A stretch of DNA of 29,687 bases from a virus, in IMG/VR virus record IMGVR_UViG_3300009071_000040, positions 1 through 29,687 of that record. One strand, written 5' to 3'. Both the position numbers and the translations under genes were made by a program. The notes under the pieces are model-generated. The model had not been told where the DNA came from. It worked only from the letters and a program-made list of their open reading frames with translations, and did not search any database. Each line of letters opens with the position of its first letter. Within the stretch, counting starts at the first letter, position 1. Below, piece after piece: positions 5,731 through 25,479 of this stretch.

Positions 5731-6785
5731 TGGTAGGTACTGTTAAACAAGTTAAACTTAATGACTCCGAATCTGATTTTCTACACTCCATAATAGTAGA
5801 AATCAATAATGGTGGAAACGCTTTTAGTGAAGTTGTAGCATGGCCAATGGACACGAATATTCAACGTGTTCCTGTTATAGGTGAAATGATTCATATTCTA
5901 AAACATCCCGGACCAGACGCTAGTTCATTATCAAGAACTTCAAGATACTACTATACAACTTCGGTATCTTTACAACGAAACATAAATCACAACGTACTTC
6001 CTAAATCTTCACTTGGGTTATCATCTGGTACAGACGGTGGTAGTTACGAAGCAGCTGCAGCAGGGAATCCATCGGGTGGTGGTTCTTCTGATTTTGCTTT
6101 TGATTTTGGATTTGAAGAAGTAGCTGACCTATCACAACTTCAACCATTTAGTGGTGATGTTTTACTTGAAGGTAGATTCGGTCAATCGATAAGATTAGGA
6201 TATACACCATCAGGAGCACAAACATCTAAAGAACCTACTTGGTCAGGCCCACCAGCAAACCCAATCACAATTTTAAGAAATACTCAAAAAGCAGATGGTT
6301 GGAACACATTCACAATCGAAGATGTAAATGATGACGACACGTCAATATACCTTACATCGGGACATAAAATATCCCTTGACTCAGCACATGATGTAGCTGG
6401 AGCTAGGGGGATTATACCAACAGCAGTCTACACTGGTAATCAGATTGTAGCTAATAGTGATAGGATTGTACTTAATGCTAAAACAGATAGTGTAGCTATC
6501 ATTGGTAGTGGTGATGTAAATATATCAACTCCAACATGGAAAGCTGCTATGGATAATATGTTTACTCAAATCGAAGAAATCAAAAATGAGTTAAATGAGT
6601 TAACAAGTGCTGTGAGTAGTTTTGCGCAAGCTGGAGCAATTGGAAACATTTCTACAACTCCAAACACTATTGTAGGGGTAAATGCCCCACTTGCTGGCGC
6701 AGGTGCTACACTCAAAGGACAAACAGCCGCAATAACAGCTCGTATTGCAAAAATAACGACTGAATTGGGCTTAATGAAACAATAA
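5730..6785 (+). CDS. 5: Baseplate hub/spike protein (gp5-like, no lysozyme domain)
   Basis: This 351-aa protein resembles the membrane-piercing spike at the tip of the contractile tail. An N-terminal OB-fold-like region (about 1-95) has the beta-rich pattern seen in gp5/gpV, including RVPVIGEMIHIL (46-57) and RYYYTTSVSLQRNINHN (72-88). A Gly/Ser-rich linker follows, then a second beta region opening LLEGRFGQSIRLGYTP. Short strands resembling a beta-helix come next (TSIYLTSGHKISL, NQIVANSDRIVLNAK). The C-terminus is helical and Ala/Ile-rich. No T4-type lysozyme domain is present, and the protein is shorter than T4 gp5 (575 aa). It begins the baseplate operon gp5-gp25-gp6-gp7, the same order as P2 V-W-J-I. 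Confidence 0.8.
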   Translation: MVGTVKQVKLNDSESDFLHSIIVEINNGGNAFSEVVAWPMDTNIQRVPVIGEMIHILKHPGPDASSLSRTSRYYYTTSVSLQRNINHNVLPKSSLGLSSGTDGGSYEAAAAGNPSGGGSSDFAFDFGFEEVADLSQLQPFSGDVLLEGRFGQSIRLGYTPSGAQTSKEPTWSGPPANPITILRNTQKADGWNTFTIEDVNDDDTSIYLTSGHKISLDSAHDVAGARGIIPTAVYTGNQIVANSDRIVLNAKTDSVAIIGSGDVNISTPTWKAAMDNMFTQIEEIKNELNELTSAVSSFAQAGAIGNISTTPNTIVGVNAPLAGAGATLKGQTAAITARIAKITTELGLMKQ

Positions 6786-20920: not shown

Positions 20921-21346
20921 ATGAATAAAAAAGGCAATTGGAGTCACATCCAAAAACAAAAAGGACATAAGTCCGGCCTTGAGACACGAATTGATGAACA
21001 ATTAAAAACTCAAGGAATTGATGGGGAGTATGAACAACACGAAGTATCATATACAATCCCAGCAACTTACCATACTTACAAACCTGATTTTAGATTACCC
21101 AATGATATCTTTATAGAATCAAAGGGATGGTTCTTACCAGAAGACAGAAAGAAGCATTTATTAATTAAAGAACAAAATCCTGACATGGATTTAAGGTTTG
21201 TATTACAATCCCCAAATGGTAAAATATACAAAGGTTCTAAAACCACTTATGCACAATGGTGTGAAAAGAATGGGTTTAAATGGGCTAAGAAAGAAATACC
21301 TCAAGAATGGATAGATGAAAAACCAATTAAGAAATTCTTTGGTTAA
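20921..21346 (+). CDS. T7-type endonuclease I (Holliday-junction resolvase)
   Basis: This 141-aa protein closely resembles T7 gp3 endonuclease I (149 aa), which cleaves four-way junctions and branched DNA before packaging. Matching stretches are SGLETRIDEQL (18-28), YTIPATYHTYKPDFRLPN (44-61), IFIESKGWFLPEDRKKHLLI (63-82), KIYKGSKTTYAQWCEKNGF and IPQEWIDEKP. The catalytic residues map to Glu21, Asp56, Glu66 and Lys68 (T7: Glu20, Asp55, Glu65, Lys67). T7 endonuclease I works as a domain-swapped dimer. T4 uses an unrelated enzyme, endonuclease VII (gp49), for this job. The gene starts 2 nt after the LamG protein and precedes a promoter and the primase. Confidence 0.95.
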   Translation: MNKKGNWSHIQKQKGHKSGLETRIDEQLKTQGIDGEYEQHEVSYTIPATYHTYKPDFRLPNDIFIESKGWFLPEDRKKHLLIKEQNPDMDLRFVLQSPNGKIYKGSKTTYAQWCEKNGFKWAKKEIPQEWIDEKPIKKFFG

Positions 21347-21376: not shown

Positions 21377-22312
21377 ATGGAAGATAGACTACTCGAATTG
21401 TTAGAGTCTGTTCTTGGTATATCCAAGAAAACGTCTGGTGATAATTACGCATTTTATTCACCATTCGTAGACCACTACAAACCTAAGTTAGAGATTAACA
21501 TTAGGATTACAGCTAATGGGCAAAACCCATGGCATTGTTGGATTTCTGATGAAAAGGGTAGAACCATCAAGGGGTTACTTAAAAAGATACGCGTATCCAA
21601 ACAAATTTGGGATGAGTATAATGCAATATTTAGTAGAATCAATAGATACAGCTACGACCAAGGTAACGACCAAGTTAACGACCAAGTTGAGCTTCCAAAA
21701 GAATTTAAACCACTTTACAAACCAACCTCATCATTCAAGTATAAACACGCTATGAATTATTTACTAAAACGAGGTGTTCGTCCAAGTGATATTGTAAAAT
21801 ATAATATTGGATATTGTGAGGATGGTGAATATAGAGACAAAATTATTATACCATCATATAATGATAAGGGTAAATTAAACTTCTTTGTAGGAAGGTCATT
21901 TTACCAAACAGAATATAAGCATAAAAATCCAAAGGTATCTAAAGATATAGTGGGATTCGATTTACTTGTAAATTGGGATACCCCATTAATATTATGTGAA
22001 GGGGCATTTGATGCAATTGCTATTCGTAGAAATGCCATACCTTTATTTGGAAAATCTATACAATCTGAATTAGAAAAGAAAATAATAGGAAATACCGTAA
22101 AAAAGTTGTATATTGTATTAGATTCGGATGCTATATCTAACGCTCTAAGCCTCGCTAAGAAGTTTATGTCGTATGGTATAGATACGCATTTAGTTGACCT
22201 AGGTGATGAAGACCCATCCGAAATGGGATATGAACGTATTAACAATAAAATCTATGATACACCAGCGCTTGATTTAAGAAAGCTCATGGAGTATCAGTTA
22301 TTTAACGTATGA
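21377..22312 (+). CDS. 61: DNA primase (TOPRIM, gp61-like) with degenerate zinc ribbon
   Basis: This 311-aa protein would synthesise RNA primers for lagging-strand replication. The TOPRIM core is intact: ILCEGAFDAIAI (205-216) gives the catalytic Glu208, and VLDSDA (247-252) gives the DxD pair Asp249/Asp251. A YRDKIIIPSYNDKGKLNFFVGRS stretch before it is typical of the DnaG-like core. In the N-terminal region FYSPFVDHYKPKLEINI...PWHCWISDEKGR keeps the shape of a CHC2 zinc ribbon, but the four expected ligand positions are Ser28, Val31, Cys54 and Ser57, so only one Cys remains. A 12-bp tandem repeat lies in the linker. The last 4 nt (ATGA) overlap the next gene. The gp61-like call rests on TOPRIM type and neighbours. 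Confidence 0.82.
   Translation: MEDRLLELLESVLGISKKTSGDNYAFYSPFVDHYKPKLEINIRITANGQNPWHCWISDEKGRTIKGLLKKIRVSKQIWDEYNAIFSRINRYSYDQGNDQVNDQVELPKEFKPLYKPTSSFKYKHAMNYLLKRGVRPSDIVKYNIGYCEDGEYRDKIIIPSYNDKGKLNFFVGRSFYQTEYKHKNPKVSKDIVGFDLLVNWDTPLILCEGAFDAIAIRRNAIPLFGKSIQSELEKKIIGNTVKKLYIVLDSDAISNALSLAKKFMSYGIDTHLVDLGDEDPSEMGYERINNKIYDTPALDLRKLMEYQLFNV
21653..21688 (+). repeat. Three 12-bp tandem repeats in the primase linker
   Basis: The units are TACGACCAAGGT, AACGACCAAGTT and AACGACCAAGTT. They encode a repetitive DQGNDQVNDQV linker between the zinc-ribbon-like part and the TOPRIM core. Copy number could vary between related phages. Confidence 0.8.
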
Positions 22313-25300
22313 AAAAAATAAAGTACATTGATGTCGGTGTTGAAAATATTGGTAAGATTTACCATATAGCCGATGTACATATTAGAAATTTAAAAAGACA
22401 CTCTGAGTATCGTGAGGTCTTTTCCCAACTTTATGGTTATATTCTGACCACAATGAGGGAAAATGACATCATTTACATTGCAGGTGATATTGTTCACGCA
22501 AAAACGGATATGTCTCCAGAAGTAGTTGATTTAACACAAGAGTTCTTTACTCGATTAGCTGACTTATTACCAACAATTGTAATTCCTGGTAACCATGACG
22601 CTAACTTAAATAATACATCAAGATTAGACGCACTTAGCCCAATCATCAACGCATTATCACATAAAAACCTACACTATATAAAAGATACGGGTGGTTTTGG
22701 TATTGGTGGTTATACTTTTATACATAAGTCAATATGGGACACCACAGTTGGATTCCCTAAAGCTACTGGATATAAAAAGAACAAGGGTCGTATTGGAATG
22801 TTTCATGGGCCTGTCGATAATATAGAAACAGAGCATGGGTTTGTTATTCAAAACCAAAATGTTAAAGTAGGTGACTTTACAAACTTTGATTTAGTATTGT
22901 TAGGTGATATTCATAAACCAAACAACCCAGTCATGGGTAACGAGCATATAAAGTATCCTGGGTCTCTCGTTGTTCAAAATCATGGTGAAGCTAAATATCC
23001 AAATCATGGTATATTAGTATGGGATATGGAAACCTTAACAAGTGAGTTTGTTCAAATACACAACGATTATGGTTACGTTACTATTGATATCGAGAATGGT
23101 AAAATAGTATCAGATAACCCCATACCTAATAAACCAAGAATACGAGTACGAGTAAAAGACACAAAAGCTTCTCAGCTTAATAAGATAATAGTAGATATTA
23201 AAAAAGGTCGTAAAGTACAAGAGCTTACAGTTCAAAAAGTACTTACTCGTAAACGTGATATTGAACATCAATCAATTATTTTACAAAACGTAAGAGATAC
23301 TGGTTTTCAAAATAAACTTATTAGTGAATACTTAGAAGAGACCGACCATTTAACCCAAGAACAATTAAGTGTTGTAACTCAGATTAATAATAACCTAAAC
23401 GACAAACTTGGTAAACATAACGTTATTAGTAATTCAACTTGGATTCCAAGACGTTTTGAATTTTCAAATATGTTTTCATATGGAAACAATAATGTAATTG
23501 ACTTCACTAATATGAAAGGGGCTTATGGAATATTTGCGCCAAACGCTAGTGGTAAGTCTACACTTTGGGATGCTCTATCATTTTGTATGTTTGATAAATG
23601 TTCAAGAACAATCAGAGCTGAAGATGTTTTAAATTATTCTAAGATGGGTTTTGATTGTAAATTCCAATTTGAATTAAATAATATTCAATACTTTATCGAG
23701 AGACACGCTAAGAAGAGTCCTAAGAGGGGAACTGTAAAAGTTGATGTAGAATTCTATCGTATGGTAGATGGGCAAAAGGAGTCTCTTAATGGAGAGCAAA
23801 GAAGAGAGACTAATTCTAACATTCGTGAATATATTGGAACATATGAAGATTTTGTTTTAACAGCAATGTCAACTCAATCTAATAGTAGCGGATTTATAGA
23901 AAAAACCCAAAAGGAACGAAAAGAATTATTAGCTCAGTTTTTAGATATGGATGTGTTTGAAGACTTATATCAAATAGCTAGTGAAGAATTTAGAGAACTA
24001 AATACGTTACTAAAGGATTACAAGAAACAAGATTTTCCTACAAAGTTAATAGACGCAGAGCAAACACTAACAAGTATAACAGGTTCACTTGATTCTTTAA
24101 ATATTAAAAAAGACGATTTAAATCTTAAATTAGAAAACACTAATACTAAGATTGAATTTCAAATGAGGGACTTAAAAGCAACTGAAGATGTTGGTGATAT
24201 TGATGAATTGGAATCTTCATTAAAAGATATAAATATCCTTCGTACAACACAAGACAAAGAGTGTACCTTTAATTTATCTCAATTAAAAAGTATAGAGATA
24301 TCTAAATCAGATGTAGAAACAAAACTTAAAGAGTTAGATATAAAAGCTTTAAAAGAAACAAATAAAAAGTTTTTACAATTAGATACTAAGTTTAACGAAG
24401 TTCAATCCAAGCTTCAAACACTTGAATTGGATATATCTCACAACAAATCTCATTTAGAAGGAATTGGTCAATTATCATTCGATGATGAATGTGAACATTG
24501 TGTAAAGAATCAAAACACTCCTTTTGCTAAAAAAGGAATAGAGTTACAAAGAGACATTGAAGCATCTCAAAAACAATACTCTAAATTGCTAAATGACAAA
24601 ACATCCTTATTAGATGAAAGACGTACATTTAATGTTAAAAAGGAATTATTAGAATATGAAGAACTATCTTCTGAGCTAACGTTATTAGAGAAGGATTGGG
24701 TAAGTGCTACGTTTGTATATGATAAATGTATGTCTCAAGTGAGAGAATACGATTCAGATATAAAAGATTTAAAACAAAAACTTGAACAAGCTAAAAAGCA
24801 AGAACAAGCAGTTGAGCATAATAAGTTGTTAAACGAAAAGATAAAATCTTTTAAAGACACACGAGAGATGATTCGTGAGAAACTATCCACATTGAACAAT
24901 GAGATTGTAGACGTGAACTCTGAAATTAAATTAGCTGAAAATTCAATTAAACAAGTAAACGAGTCAATTGAAAAGCTAAAGGGTATGGAACTCAAATATA
25001 ATGGATATGAATATTACATAAAATGTGTACGAAGAGATGGGATACCATACCAATTAATATCTGAAGTACTACCAAAATTAGAAATAGAAATAAACAACAT
25101 CCTATCACCAATAGTTGATTTTCAAGTATTATTAAATACTGATGGAAAAAACATTAATTCATATATAGCATATGGAACTGATGAGTTCTGGCCTCTTGAA
25201 TTAACAAGTGGTATGGAGAAGTTCATTTCATCAATTGCAATTAGAACGGCATTAATTAATGTATCTAACCTACCAAGACCTAATTTTATCGCCATTGACG

Positions 25301-25479
25301 AGGGATTTGGTTCATTAGATACGGATAACTTTAATTCACTATATTTATTATTTGATTACCTTAAGACACAATTTGATTTTATTATCACGATTTCACACAT
25401 CGATAAGACCCGAGATATGGTCGACCAGATAATAGATATCAGTAAAGTGAAGGGGTTCTCAAAAGTTTCATATTTATAG
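22309..25479 (+). CDS. 47-46: Single-chain Mre11-Rad50 (gp47-gp46 / SbcD-SbcC) fusion
   Basis: This 1056-aa protein joins two normally separate subunits. Residues about 1-375 are the Mre11/SbcD phosphoesterase: ADVH (21-24), GDIVH (59-63), GNHD (94-97), MFHG (164-167) and GDIHK (199-203). From about 380 on it is Rad50/SbcC. This part has Walker A APNASGKST (410-418), a Q-loop-like STQSN, a long coiled coil (about 560-895), a zinc hook CEHC (728-731), signature ELTSGMEKF (964-972), Walker B AIDE (995-998) with GSLD and TISH (His1030). T4 encodes gp47 (339 aa) and gp46 as two genes for recombination and end resection. There is no stop or frameshift at the junction. The first Gly of Walker A is Ala. 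It overlaps the primase by ATGA. Confidence 0.95.
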   Translation: MKKIKYIDVGVENIGKIYHIADVHIRNLKRHSEYREVFSQLYGYILTTMRENDIIYIAGDIVHAKTDMSPEVVDLTQEFFTRLADLLPTIVIPGNHDANLNNTSRLDALSPIINALSHKNLHYIKDTGGFGIGGYTFIHKSIWDTTVGFPKATGYKKNKGRIGMFHGPVDNIETEHGFVIQNQNVKVGDFTNFDLVLLGDIHKPNNPVMGNEHIKYPGSLVVQNHGEAKYPNHGILVWDMETLTSEFVQIHNDYGYVTIDIENGKIVSDNPIPNKPRIRVRVKDTKASQLNKIIVDIKKGRKVQELTVQKVLTRKRDIEHQSIILQNVRDTGFQNKLISEYLEETDHLTQEQLSVVTQINNNLNDKLGKHNVISNSTWIPRRFEFSNMFSYGNNNVIDFTNMKGAYGIFAPNASGKSTLWDALSFCMFDKCSRTIRAEDVLNYSKMGFDCKFQFELNNIQYFIERHAKKSPKRGTVKVDVEFYRMVDGQKESLNGEQRRETNSNIREYIGTYEDFVLTAMSTQSNSSGFIEKTQKERKELLAQFLDMDVFEDLYQIASEEFRELNTLLKDYKKQDFPTKLIDAEQTLTSITGSLDSLNIKKDDLNLKLENTNTKIEFQMRDLKATEDVGDIDELESSLKDINILRTTQDKECTFNLSQLKSIEISKSDVETKLKELDIKALKETNKKFLQLDTKFNEVQSKLQTLELDISHNKSHLEGIGQLSFDDECEHCVKNQNTPFAKKGIELQRDIEASQKQYSKLLNDKTSLLDERRTFNVKKELLEYEELSSELTLLEKDWVSATFVYDKCMSQVREYDSDIKDLKQKLEQAKKQEQAVEHNKLLNEKIKSFKDTREMIREKLSTLNNEIVDVNSEIKLAENSIKQVNESIEKLKGMELKYNGYEYYIKCVRRDGIPYQLISEVLPKLEIEINNILSPIVDFQVLLNTDGKNINSYIAYGTDEFWPLELTSGMEKFISSIAIRTALINVSNLPRPNFIAIDEGFGSLDTDNFNSLYLLFDYLKTQFDFIITISHIDKTRDMVDQIIDISKVKGFSKVSYL

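Follow-up and report, generated by a model that had tools for sequence, protein, structure and literature searches.

A viral open reading frame that carries Mre11 and Rad50 in one chain, joined by a ten-residue linker

Can one viral gene carry both halves of the Mre11-Rad50 (SbcD-SbcC) machine, and does such a tether leave room for the ordinary complex of two Mre11 and two Rad50 subunits (M2R2)? The question is raised by an open reading frame (ORF) in IMG/VR record IMGVR_UViG_3300009071_000040, which was analysed over its whole 29,687 nucleotides (nt; hereafter the window). A first-pass annotation of the DNA letters had read positions 22309–25479 (+ strand) as a nuclease and an ATPase in one uninterrupted chain. 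The frame is open throughout for 1056 amino acids (aa), the reverse strand there is stop-rich in the frame shown, and profiles, motifs and structure matches confirmed an Mre11/SbcD nuclease domain followed by a Rad50/SbcC ATPase domain. The product is very probably a naturally tethered Mre11-Rad50 (SbcCD-type) nuclease that would form M2R2 and act in recombination-dependent replication. The ORF was divided as follows.

22309..25479, + strand: fused Mre11-Rad50 (SbcD-SbcC) ORF, 1056 aa (profiles, AlphaFold2 model, structure matches)
22309..23238, + strand: Mre11 phosphoesterase core and capping domain, residues 1–310 (PF00149, structure matches, conservation)
23299..23409, + strand: helix-loop-helix, residues 331–367, presumed Rad50-binding domain of Mre11 (AlphaFold2 helices 331–345 and 350–367; position as in T. 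maritima Mre11, from excerpts of PMC3175470)
23410..23439, + strand: linker, residues 368–377 (AlphaFold2 model, 43-sequence alignment)
23440..23949, + strand: Rad50 N-lobe, residues 378–547, with Walker A 410–417 and Q-loop Gln 523 (model, alignment, structure matches)
23950..25029, + strand: coiled coil, residues 548–907 (AlphaFold2 helices; fastest-evolving large region)
24490..24501, + strand: putative zinc-hook CxxC (CEHC), residues 728–731 (alignment)
25030..25476, + strand: Rad50 C-lobe, residues 908–1056, with SGME 967–970, Walker B D997-E998, D-loop and H-loop H1030 (model, alignment, structure matches)

The N-terminal half was matched by Pfam Metallophos (PF00149; residues 16–204, E 1.3e-10, 42.4 bits, above the 21.5 cut-off) and, below its curated cut-off, by NCBIfam SbcD (residues 16–99, E 7.4e-12). 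The C-terminal half was matched by PHROG phrog_77 SbcC (residues 316–1055, E 1.1e-50), by NCBIfam SbcC (best stretch residues 380–565, E 1e-22, below the curated cut-off) and by Pfam SMC_N (residues 383–1047, E 2.3e-5, below its own cut-off). An AlphaFold2 model was built from 43 aligned sequences, the window's included, with a mean predicted local distance difference test (pLDDT) of 81.3 and a predicted template modelling score (pTM) of 0.46. It was superposed on S. aureus SbcD 7dog_A (Z 25.0, residues 14–310, root-mean-square deviation (rmsd) 3.6, 276 aligned), E. coli SbcD 4lty_B (Z 23.7, residues 13–310) and the E. coli SbcC head 7yzo_D (Z 30.3, residues 378–1056, rmsd 3.6, 351 aligned). 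Pfam, NCBIfam and structure thus all found the Mre11 domain that had been expected within residues 1–330. In model and alignment, the Rad50 half consists of ABC ATPase lobes with all six motifs flanking the coiled coil.

Motif conservation was scored over the 43 aligned sequences, window included. D22/H24, G59-D60..H63 and G94-N95-H96-D97 are invariant wherever a letter is present (41 or 42 of 43, the remainder gaps), and H166 and motif V (G199-D200-I-H202) are found in 43/43. Walker A (A410-P-N-A-S-G-K-S) keeps G-K-S in all 43 sequences, with Ala replacing the usual first Gly in every one. Q523, the signature S967-G-M-E, Walker B D997-E998, the L-D of the D-loop, H1030 and the two putative hook cysteines, C728 and C731, are each present in 43/43. 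The first-pass annotation had credited both halves with full motif sets; all are present and conserved, with two corrections in the nuclease: the last residue of motif II is His, and motif V reads GDIH in place of the GHxH of SbcD. With GDIH as motif V, the N-terminal half is a calcineurin-like phosphoesterase with five Mre11 motifs. Five other fused proteins were inspected and have GDIH in four cases and GHIH in one (Sphingomonas phage PAU), whereas six split SbcD proteins have GHxH in five and GDLH in one. Mimivirus R555, as described in excerpts of PMC3175470, carries the same replacements: a His in motif II and, in motif V, an Asp where the first His would be.

The junction proved shorter than first described. 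A linker of 60–100 residues had been proposed, and from the tether a constraint on M2R2; the linker is 10 residues (368–377), and the stretch ahead of it holds the end of the capping domain and both helices of the helix-loop-helix. The first Rad50 strand of the model begins at residue 377. Linker length is 10 in 43/43 aligned sequences and its letters are mostly variable, with N375 in 42/43. For the T. maritima complex (3QG5), excerpts of PMC3175470 give ~28 Å from the end of Mre11 to the start of Rad50 and an estimated need of 9–12 residues. The window protein has the capping and helix-loop-helix regions followed by a linker within that range, and so seems made to form the ordinary complex. 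Because domain order and spacing fit the T. maritima chain contact, as far as those excerpts describe it, the fusion need not constrain M2R2; it looks suited to the normal arrangement rather than a strain on it, and the proposed constraint was overstated. The fused protein of a 735-kb phage (LR756501.1, behind locus L004) is one residue shorter in the linker region of the alignment, and Bacteroidota-phage proteins have a different, longer stretch at this position.

Related fusions were found at about 41–79% identity on dozens of viral contigs, and the fusion is kept down to 36% identity. Among the matches listed in a pattern scan of viral contigs, 556 of 600 stretches encode a relative, from at least 79 distinct loci; in 74 of these 79 the match starts at residue 1–14 and reaches, or almost reaches, the end, and the other five (L022, L029, L038, L047 and L048) are cut off by contig ends. 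A single frame matches both halves in 93/94 loci, the exception (L013) being a contig end; the 94 include five that are the window itself or second copies of contigs already counted, and the 93 include L003, interrupted in its nuclease half, and L026, with a stop codon in its coiled coil. The ratio of nonsynonymous to synonymous substitution rates (dN/dS) against the 79%-identical L006 was 0.10 for the whole ORF, 0.06 for Mre11, 0.02 and 0.03 for the Rad50 lobes and 0.17 for the coiled coil, and whole-ORF values were 0.11 against L014 and 0.16 against L016; dS was saturated for L005, and as dS is near or at saturation the ratios are rough. A scan of genomes yielded two relatives out of 118 matches to the pattern; each lies on a short contig of a metagenome-assembled genome. 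L093 (CALBOT010000005.1) was binned as Nitrosopelagicus and L094 (JAQUPX010000020.1) as bacterium; both carry fused genes and are probably phage contigs binned with cells. The plasmid search returned matches to the Rad50 half alone, in four records.

Two genes lie directly upstream of the ORF.

20921..21346, + strand: T7 endonuclease I-like nuclease gene (Phage_endo_I; PF05367, E 5.4e-53; phrog_945)
21377..22312, + strand: TOPRIM/DnaG-like primase gene (phrog_47, E 1.6e-30; TIGR00646 and TIGR01391 both under cut-off)

The start of the fused ORF overlaps the stop of the TOPRIM gene by 4 nt (ATGA). Neighbourhoods were counted over 86 loci, after eight were set aside (five repeats and three apparently identical to L007). 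Of the 86, 82 have a TOPRIM homologue; the four without are three loci with hardly any sequence upstream and L004, where the gene is truly missing. An endonuclease I homologue is present in 74/86, several of the 12 misses having short upstream sequence; it was not found in L002, L003, L004, L089 or L092 despite at least 3 kb upstream. In most loci the TOPRIM gene overlaps the fused gene or all but touches it, whereas in L045 and L046 the two are separated by ~850 bases, which may hold an extra gene. Beyond the immediate neighbourhood, a RecA-family gene was found in 9/14 records (all six IMG/VR contigs of at least 129 kb, Microcystis phage Mel-JY01 and two huge phages). The fused gene is the sole Metallophos match in 9/9 IMG/VR contigs, Mel-JY01 and Tenacibaculum phage PTm1, and the AAA_23 profile gave one match in 8/9 of these contigs, missing the fused gene itself in the ninth, G002.

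In the mechanism that we propose, two identical chains would pair through their Mre11 halves and ATP-sandwiched Rad50 heads to give M2R2. Docking would be in cis: the helix-loop-helix of each Mre11 half would sit on the coiled coil of the same chain, and the linker would be just long enough to reach the Rad50 N-lobe. ATP hydrolysis would control whether DNA ends or hairpins reach the metal-dependent nuclease site, and resected 3' ends would feed a RecA/UvsX-driven cycle of recombination and replication, in which the endonuclease I-like resolvase and the TOPRIM primase-like protein encoded next to it would take part. The likely role is to resect DNA ends and cleave hairpins in recombination-dependent replication. 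Several observations weigh against this proposal. The pTM of the model is low. The Asp of motif V replaces a His metal ligand of canonical Mre11 and the Ala of Walker A a Gly, and activity could therefore differ. RecA was not found in 5/14 records (three contigs of 83–112 kb, PTm1 and PAU). Further Metallophos matches exist in some records (totals of two in LR756508, four in LR756501 and two in PAU). Since AAA_23 missed the fused gene of G002, profile absence is weak evidence; the contigs themselves may be incomplete, so that the phages could have a separate SbcC or SbcD.

The first reading rested on one contig, which raised the suspicion that two genes had been joined into one ORF by an assembly or sequencing error; this is already refuted. 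A second viral record, IMGVR_UViG_3300025626_000006 (111,909 bp, behind L011), shares 17,379 bases with the window at 2 mismatches, both inside the fused ORF, although its reads may not be independent of the window's. The stop or frameshift at residues 370–385 that would have undone the fusion was looked for in this record, and none was found. Besides the count of 93/94 loci in one frame, repeats and fragments included, five cultured phages have a single annotated coding sequence (CDS), and dN/dS is low on both sides of the junction. It is also improbable that the fusion, made as one chain, works as two subunits released by proteolysis or an internal start and is mechanically unimportant. The mostly variable linker letters are as in a cleavable tether, and the genes for SbcD and SbcC share a few bases in 5/12 split pairs (four phages, one plasmid), so that a fusion could be a small, near-neutral change. 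However, a constant length of 10 residues in 43/43 goes beyond the need of a cleavable spacer, and the fusion has been maintained across the divergence described above. The window gene is without an in-frame ATG, GTG or TTG between residues 319 and 387, and M388 and M402 lie inside the Rad50 N-lobe; a separate Rad50 from an internal start was rejected for want of a candidate codon in that interval.

The tethered replication nuclease was also weighed against a defence or counter-defence SMC-nuclease of Lamassu style, acting on host or rival DNA, which we consider very improbable. In Lamassu, the SMC-like LmuB is partnered with the effector nuclease LmuA. The PADLOC LmuB profile matched residues 392–1029 (E 2.5e-25), and Lamassu complex structures were returned at Foldseek ranks 28 and 29; no LmuA match was listed by PADLOC for the fused protein, the neighbouring genes being outside that scan. 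Mutants of the T4 gp46/gp47 genes also fail to degrade host DNA (PMC5105663, in excerpt). On the other side, the match to phrog_77 SbcC is stronger than that to LmuB, in a different library, and the N-terminal half is SbcD-like. The steady neighbourhood with resolvase-like and primase-like genes suggests a core gene and not an accessory defence gene.

Descent was examined with trees of fused proteins and of split pairs joined end to end. A first tree (19 fused, 6 split) gave a division at 97/97, with very long branches and one joined row. It was rebuilt with that row removed, as 31 rows (19 fused proteins and 12 split pairs); here a branch with support 100/99 separates the fused proteins from the split pairs, nine rows having odd letter make-up and four long branches. 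Trees of the Mre11 half and of the Rad50 heads alone were made by a quick method (18 fused, 12 split; L110 was dropped because the Walker A pattern missed it). Each gave the same division of fused from split, at 96 by the Shimodaira–Hasegawa-like approximate likelihood ratio test (SH-aLRT), and both gave the same two fused subclades. The concordance of the halves fits one fusion and joint inheritance among the phages sampled, and suggests that these fusions form one clade derived from one old fusion. The fused rows were gathered by similarity to fused queries, so the sampling would miss fusions that lie near split lineages, for example that of Bacillus phage 0305phi8-36 from the 2011 paper; the trees leave aside this phage as well as eukaryote and giant-virus fusions, R555 among them. 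Excerpts of PMC3175470 conclude that fusions arose repeatedly, and on these trees the single-clade result is different from that view. There may be a common descent with R555, itself outside the trees; giant-virus proteins head the Foldseek matches, and the two motif changes agree with R555 as the excerpts describe it. Tentatively, the sampled tailed-phage fusions (Mel-JY01, uncultured, Bacteroidota jumbo and 735-kb) may come from one ancient fusion kept ever since, in which case the length-locked linker would here enforce pairing in cis within a two-chain M2R2 and the giant-virus R555 group may share the event.

A protein of this kind was already published in 2011, and the window protein is a well-supported further example. 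Yoshida, Claverie and Ogata reported Mre11/Rad50 fusions in Mimivirus R555, a Bacillus phage, plasmids and eukaryotes; according to excerpts of their paper (PMC3175470), R555-like genes are abundant in aquatic viruses, scaffolds with R555 homologs also carry primase genes, and most fusions of that set keep the capping and helix-loop-helix regions with a short linker. R555 is also named in excerpts of PMC6466248. By its description in PMC3175470, and without alignment, R555 resembles the window protein in having Mre11 first and Rad50 second in one chain with the helix-loop-helix and short linker kept, and differs in size and host (1351 aa in an amoeba virus, against 1056 aa in a tailed phage). 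Giant-virus proteins came first in a Foldseek search of viral models (Tupanvirus at 26% identity, E 1.2e-74; Harvfovirus, Yasminevirus, Terrestrivirus, Catovirus), with alignments spanning 1,100–1,400 columns, their domain content being judged from length and span alone. Tenacibaculum phage pT24 followed at rank 11 (15% identity), and Listeria phage LMTA-57 (1009 aa, rank 12) may be another fusion. No experimental study of an Mre11-Rad50 fusion was among the matches listed from the open-licence literature, and the exact phrase 'Mre11-Rad50 fusion' is absent from the open-licence papers searched.

Cultured relatives were compared by gene structure, and the prediction that other Bacteroidota phages carry such fusions was correct. 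Mel-JY01 has a single 1066-aa fused CDS (WWT39521.1; 40% identity over the full length), annotated just as 'AAA domain' protein. Like the window, it has a TOPRIM primase-like gene upstream, but a small gene lies in between and, unlike in the window, no homologue of endonuclease I turned up in the region searched. Tenacibaculum phages pT24 and PTm1, Sphingomonas phage PAU and Chryseobacterium phage MA9V-1 each have a single CDS of 1301–1326 aa labelled 'metallo-phosphoesterase'. These jumbo-phage proteins aligned over 96–99% of the 735-kb phage fusion (1202 aa, same architecture) with GNHD, Walker A and CxxC present; they form a separate subclade with a longer stretch ahead of the Rad50 lobe than in the window protein, to which pT24 and PTm1 are 15–16% identical in structural alignment. 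With Pfam alone, a single half was recognised in each of pT24 and PTm1, Metallophos being seen in PTm1 by a separate record-wide search. T4-like gp47/gp46 and bacterial SbcD/SbcC share domains, gene order, motifs and fold with the window protein, and differ in being two genes and, in 5/6 split proteins inspected, in having GHxH as motif V. A split-type Rad50 query (EFDG1) matched 3,628 phage records; gene structure was examined in 12 split pairs (ten phage, two plasmid), and the halves are separate in 12/12 (T4-like, T5-like, SPO1-like and others), in line with the statement that they are normally separate genes. In LR756501.1, besides the fusion, a separate 566-aa frame and part of a 244-aa frame match AAA_23 at 672010–672690, and three additional Metallophos matches lie elsewhere; these are possibly a second, split system.

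A natural single chain would amount to a two-chain version of an important DNA-repair machine and could ease the study of how Rad50 ATP hydrolysis gates Mre11. A phage gene labelled just 'AAA domain' or 'metallo-phosphoesterase' can encode Mre11-Rad50 in full. Modest additions that may be new are the fixed length of the linker, the steady grouping of resolvase, primase and Mre11-Rad50 genes, the members in cultured phages that had been mislabelled, and the finding of a single clade.

In L003 (4989–9214 of the locus, from LR756508.1, a 484-kb uncultured phage) the fused gene is interrupted in its Mre11 half, just past GDIH, by an ORF with an N-terminal TnsA-like endonuclease match; the second gene piece is an ORF of its own and has start codons close to where it begins. 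An intron at L003 4900–7000 was considered and rejected, as Rfam gave two matches, both under gathering scores and neither an intron. In L108 (2474–5754) the gene is split into two frames at nearly the same place after GDIH, and the first piece has a short tail resembling that of L003 and no endonuclease ORF, as if the insert had been lost while the split stayed. L026 has a fused ORF that is intact except for one stop codon (6524–6526) in the coiled coil; this could be an error or a real truncation.

Elsewhere in the window there are baseplate wedge genes and a gene resembling a head maturation protease, and a large protein encoded downstream gave a weak collagen-like tail match. A gene at 725–1636 matches phrog_8420 endonuclease (E 8e-54); its product is perhaps a UV-damage-type endonuclease, a name that we have guessed. 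An Hsp20-like gene lies at 90–434.

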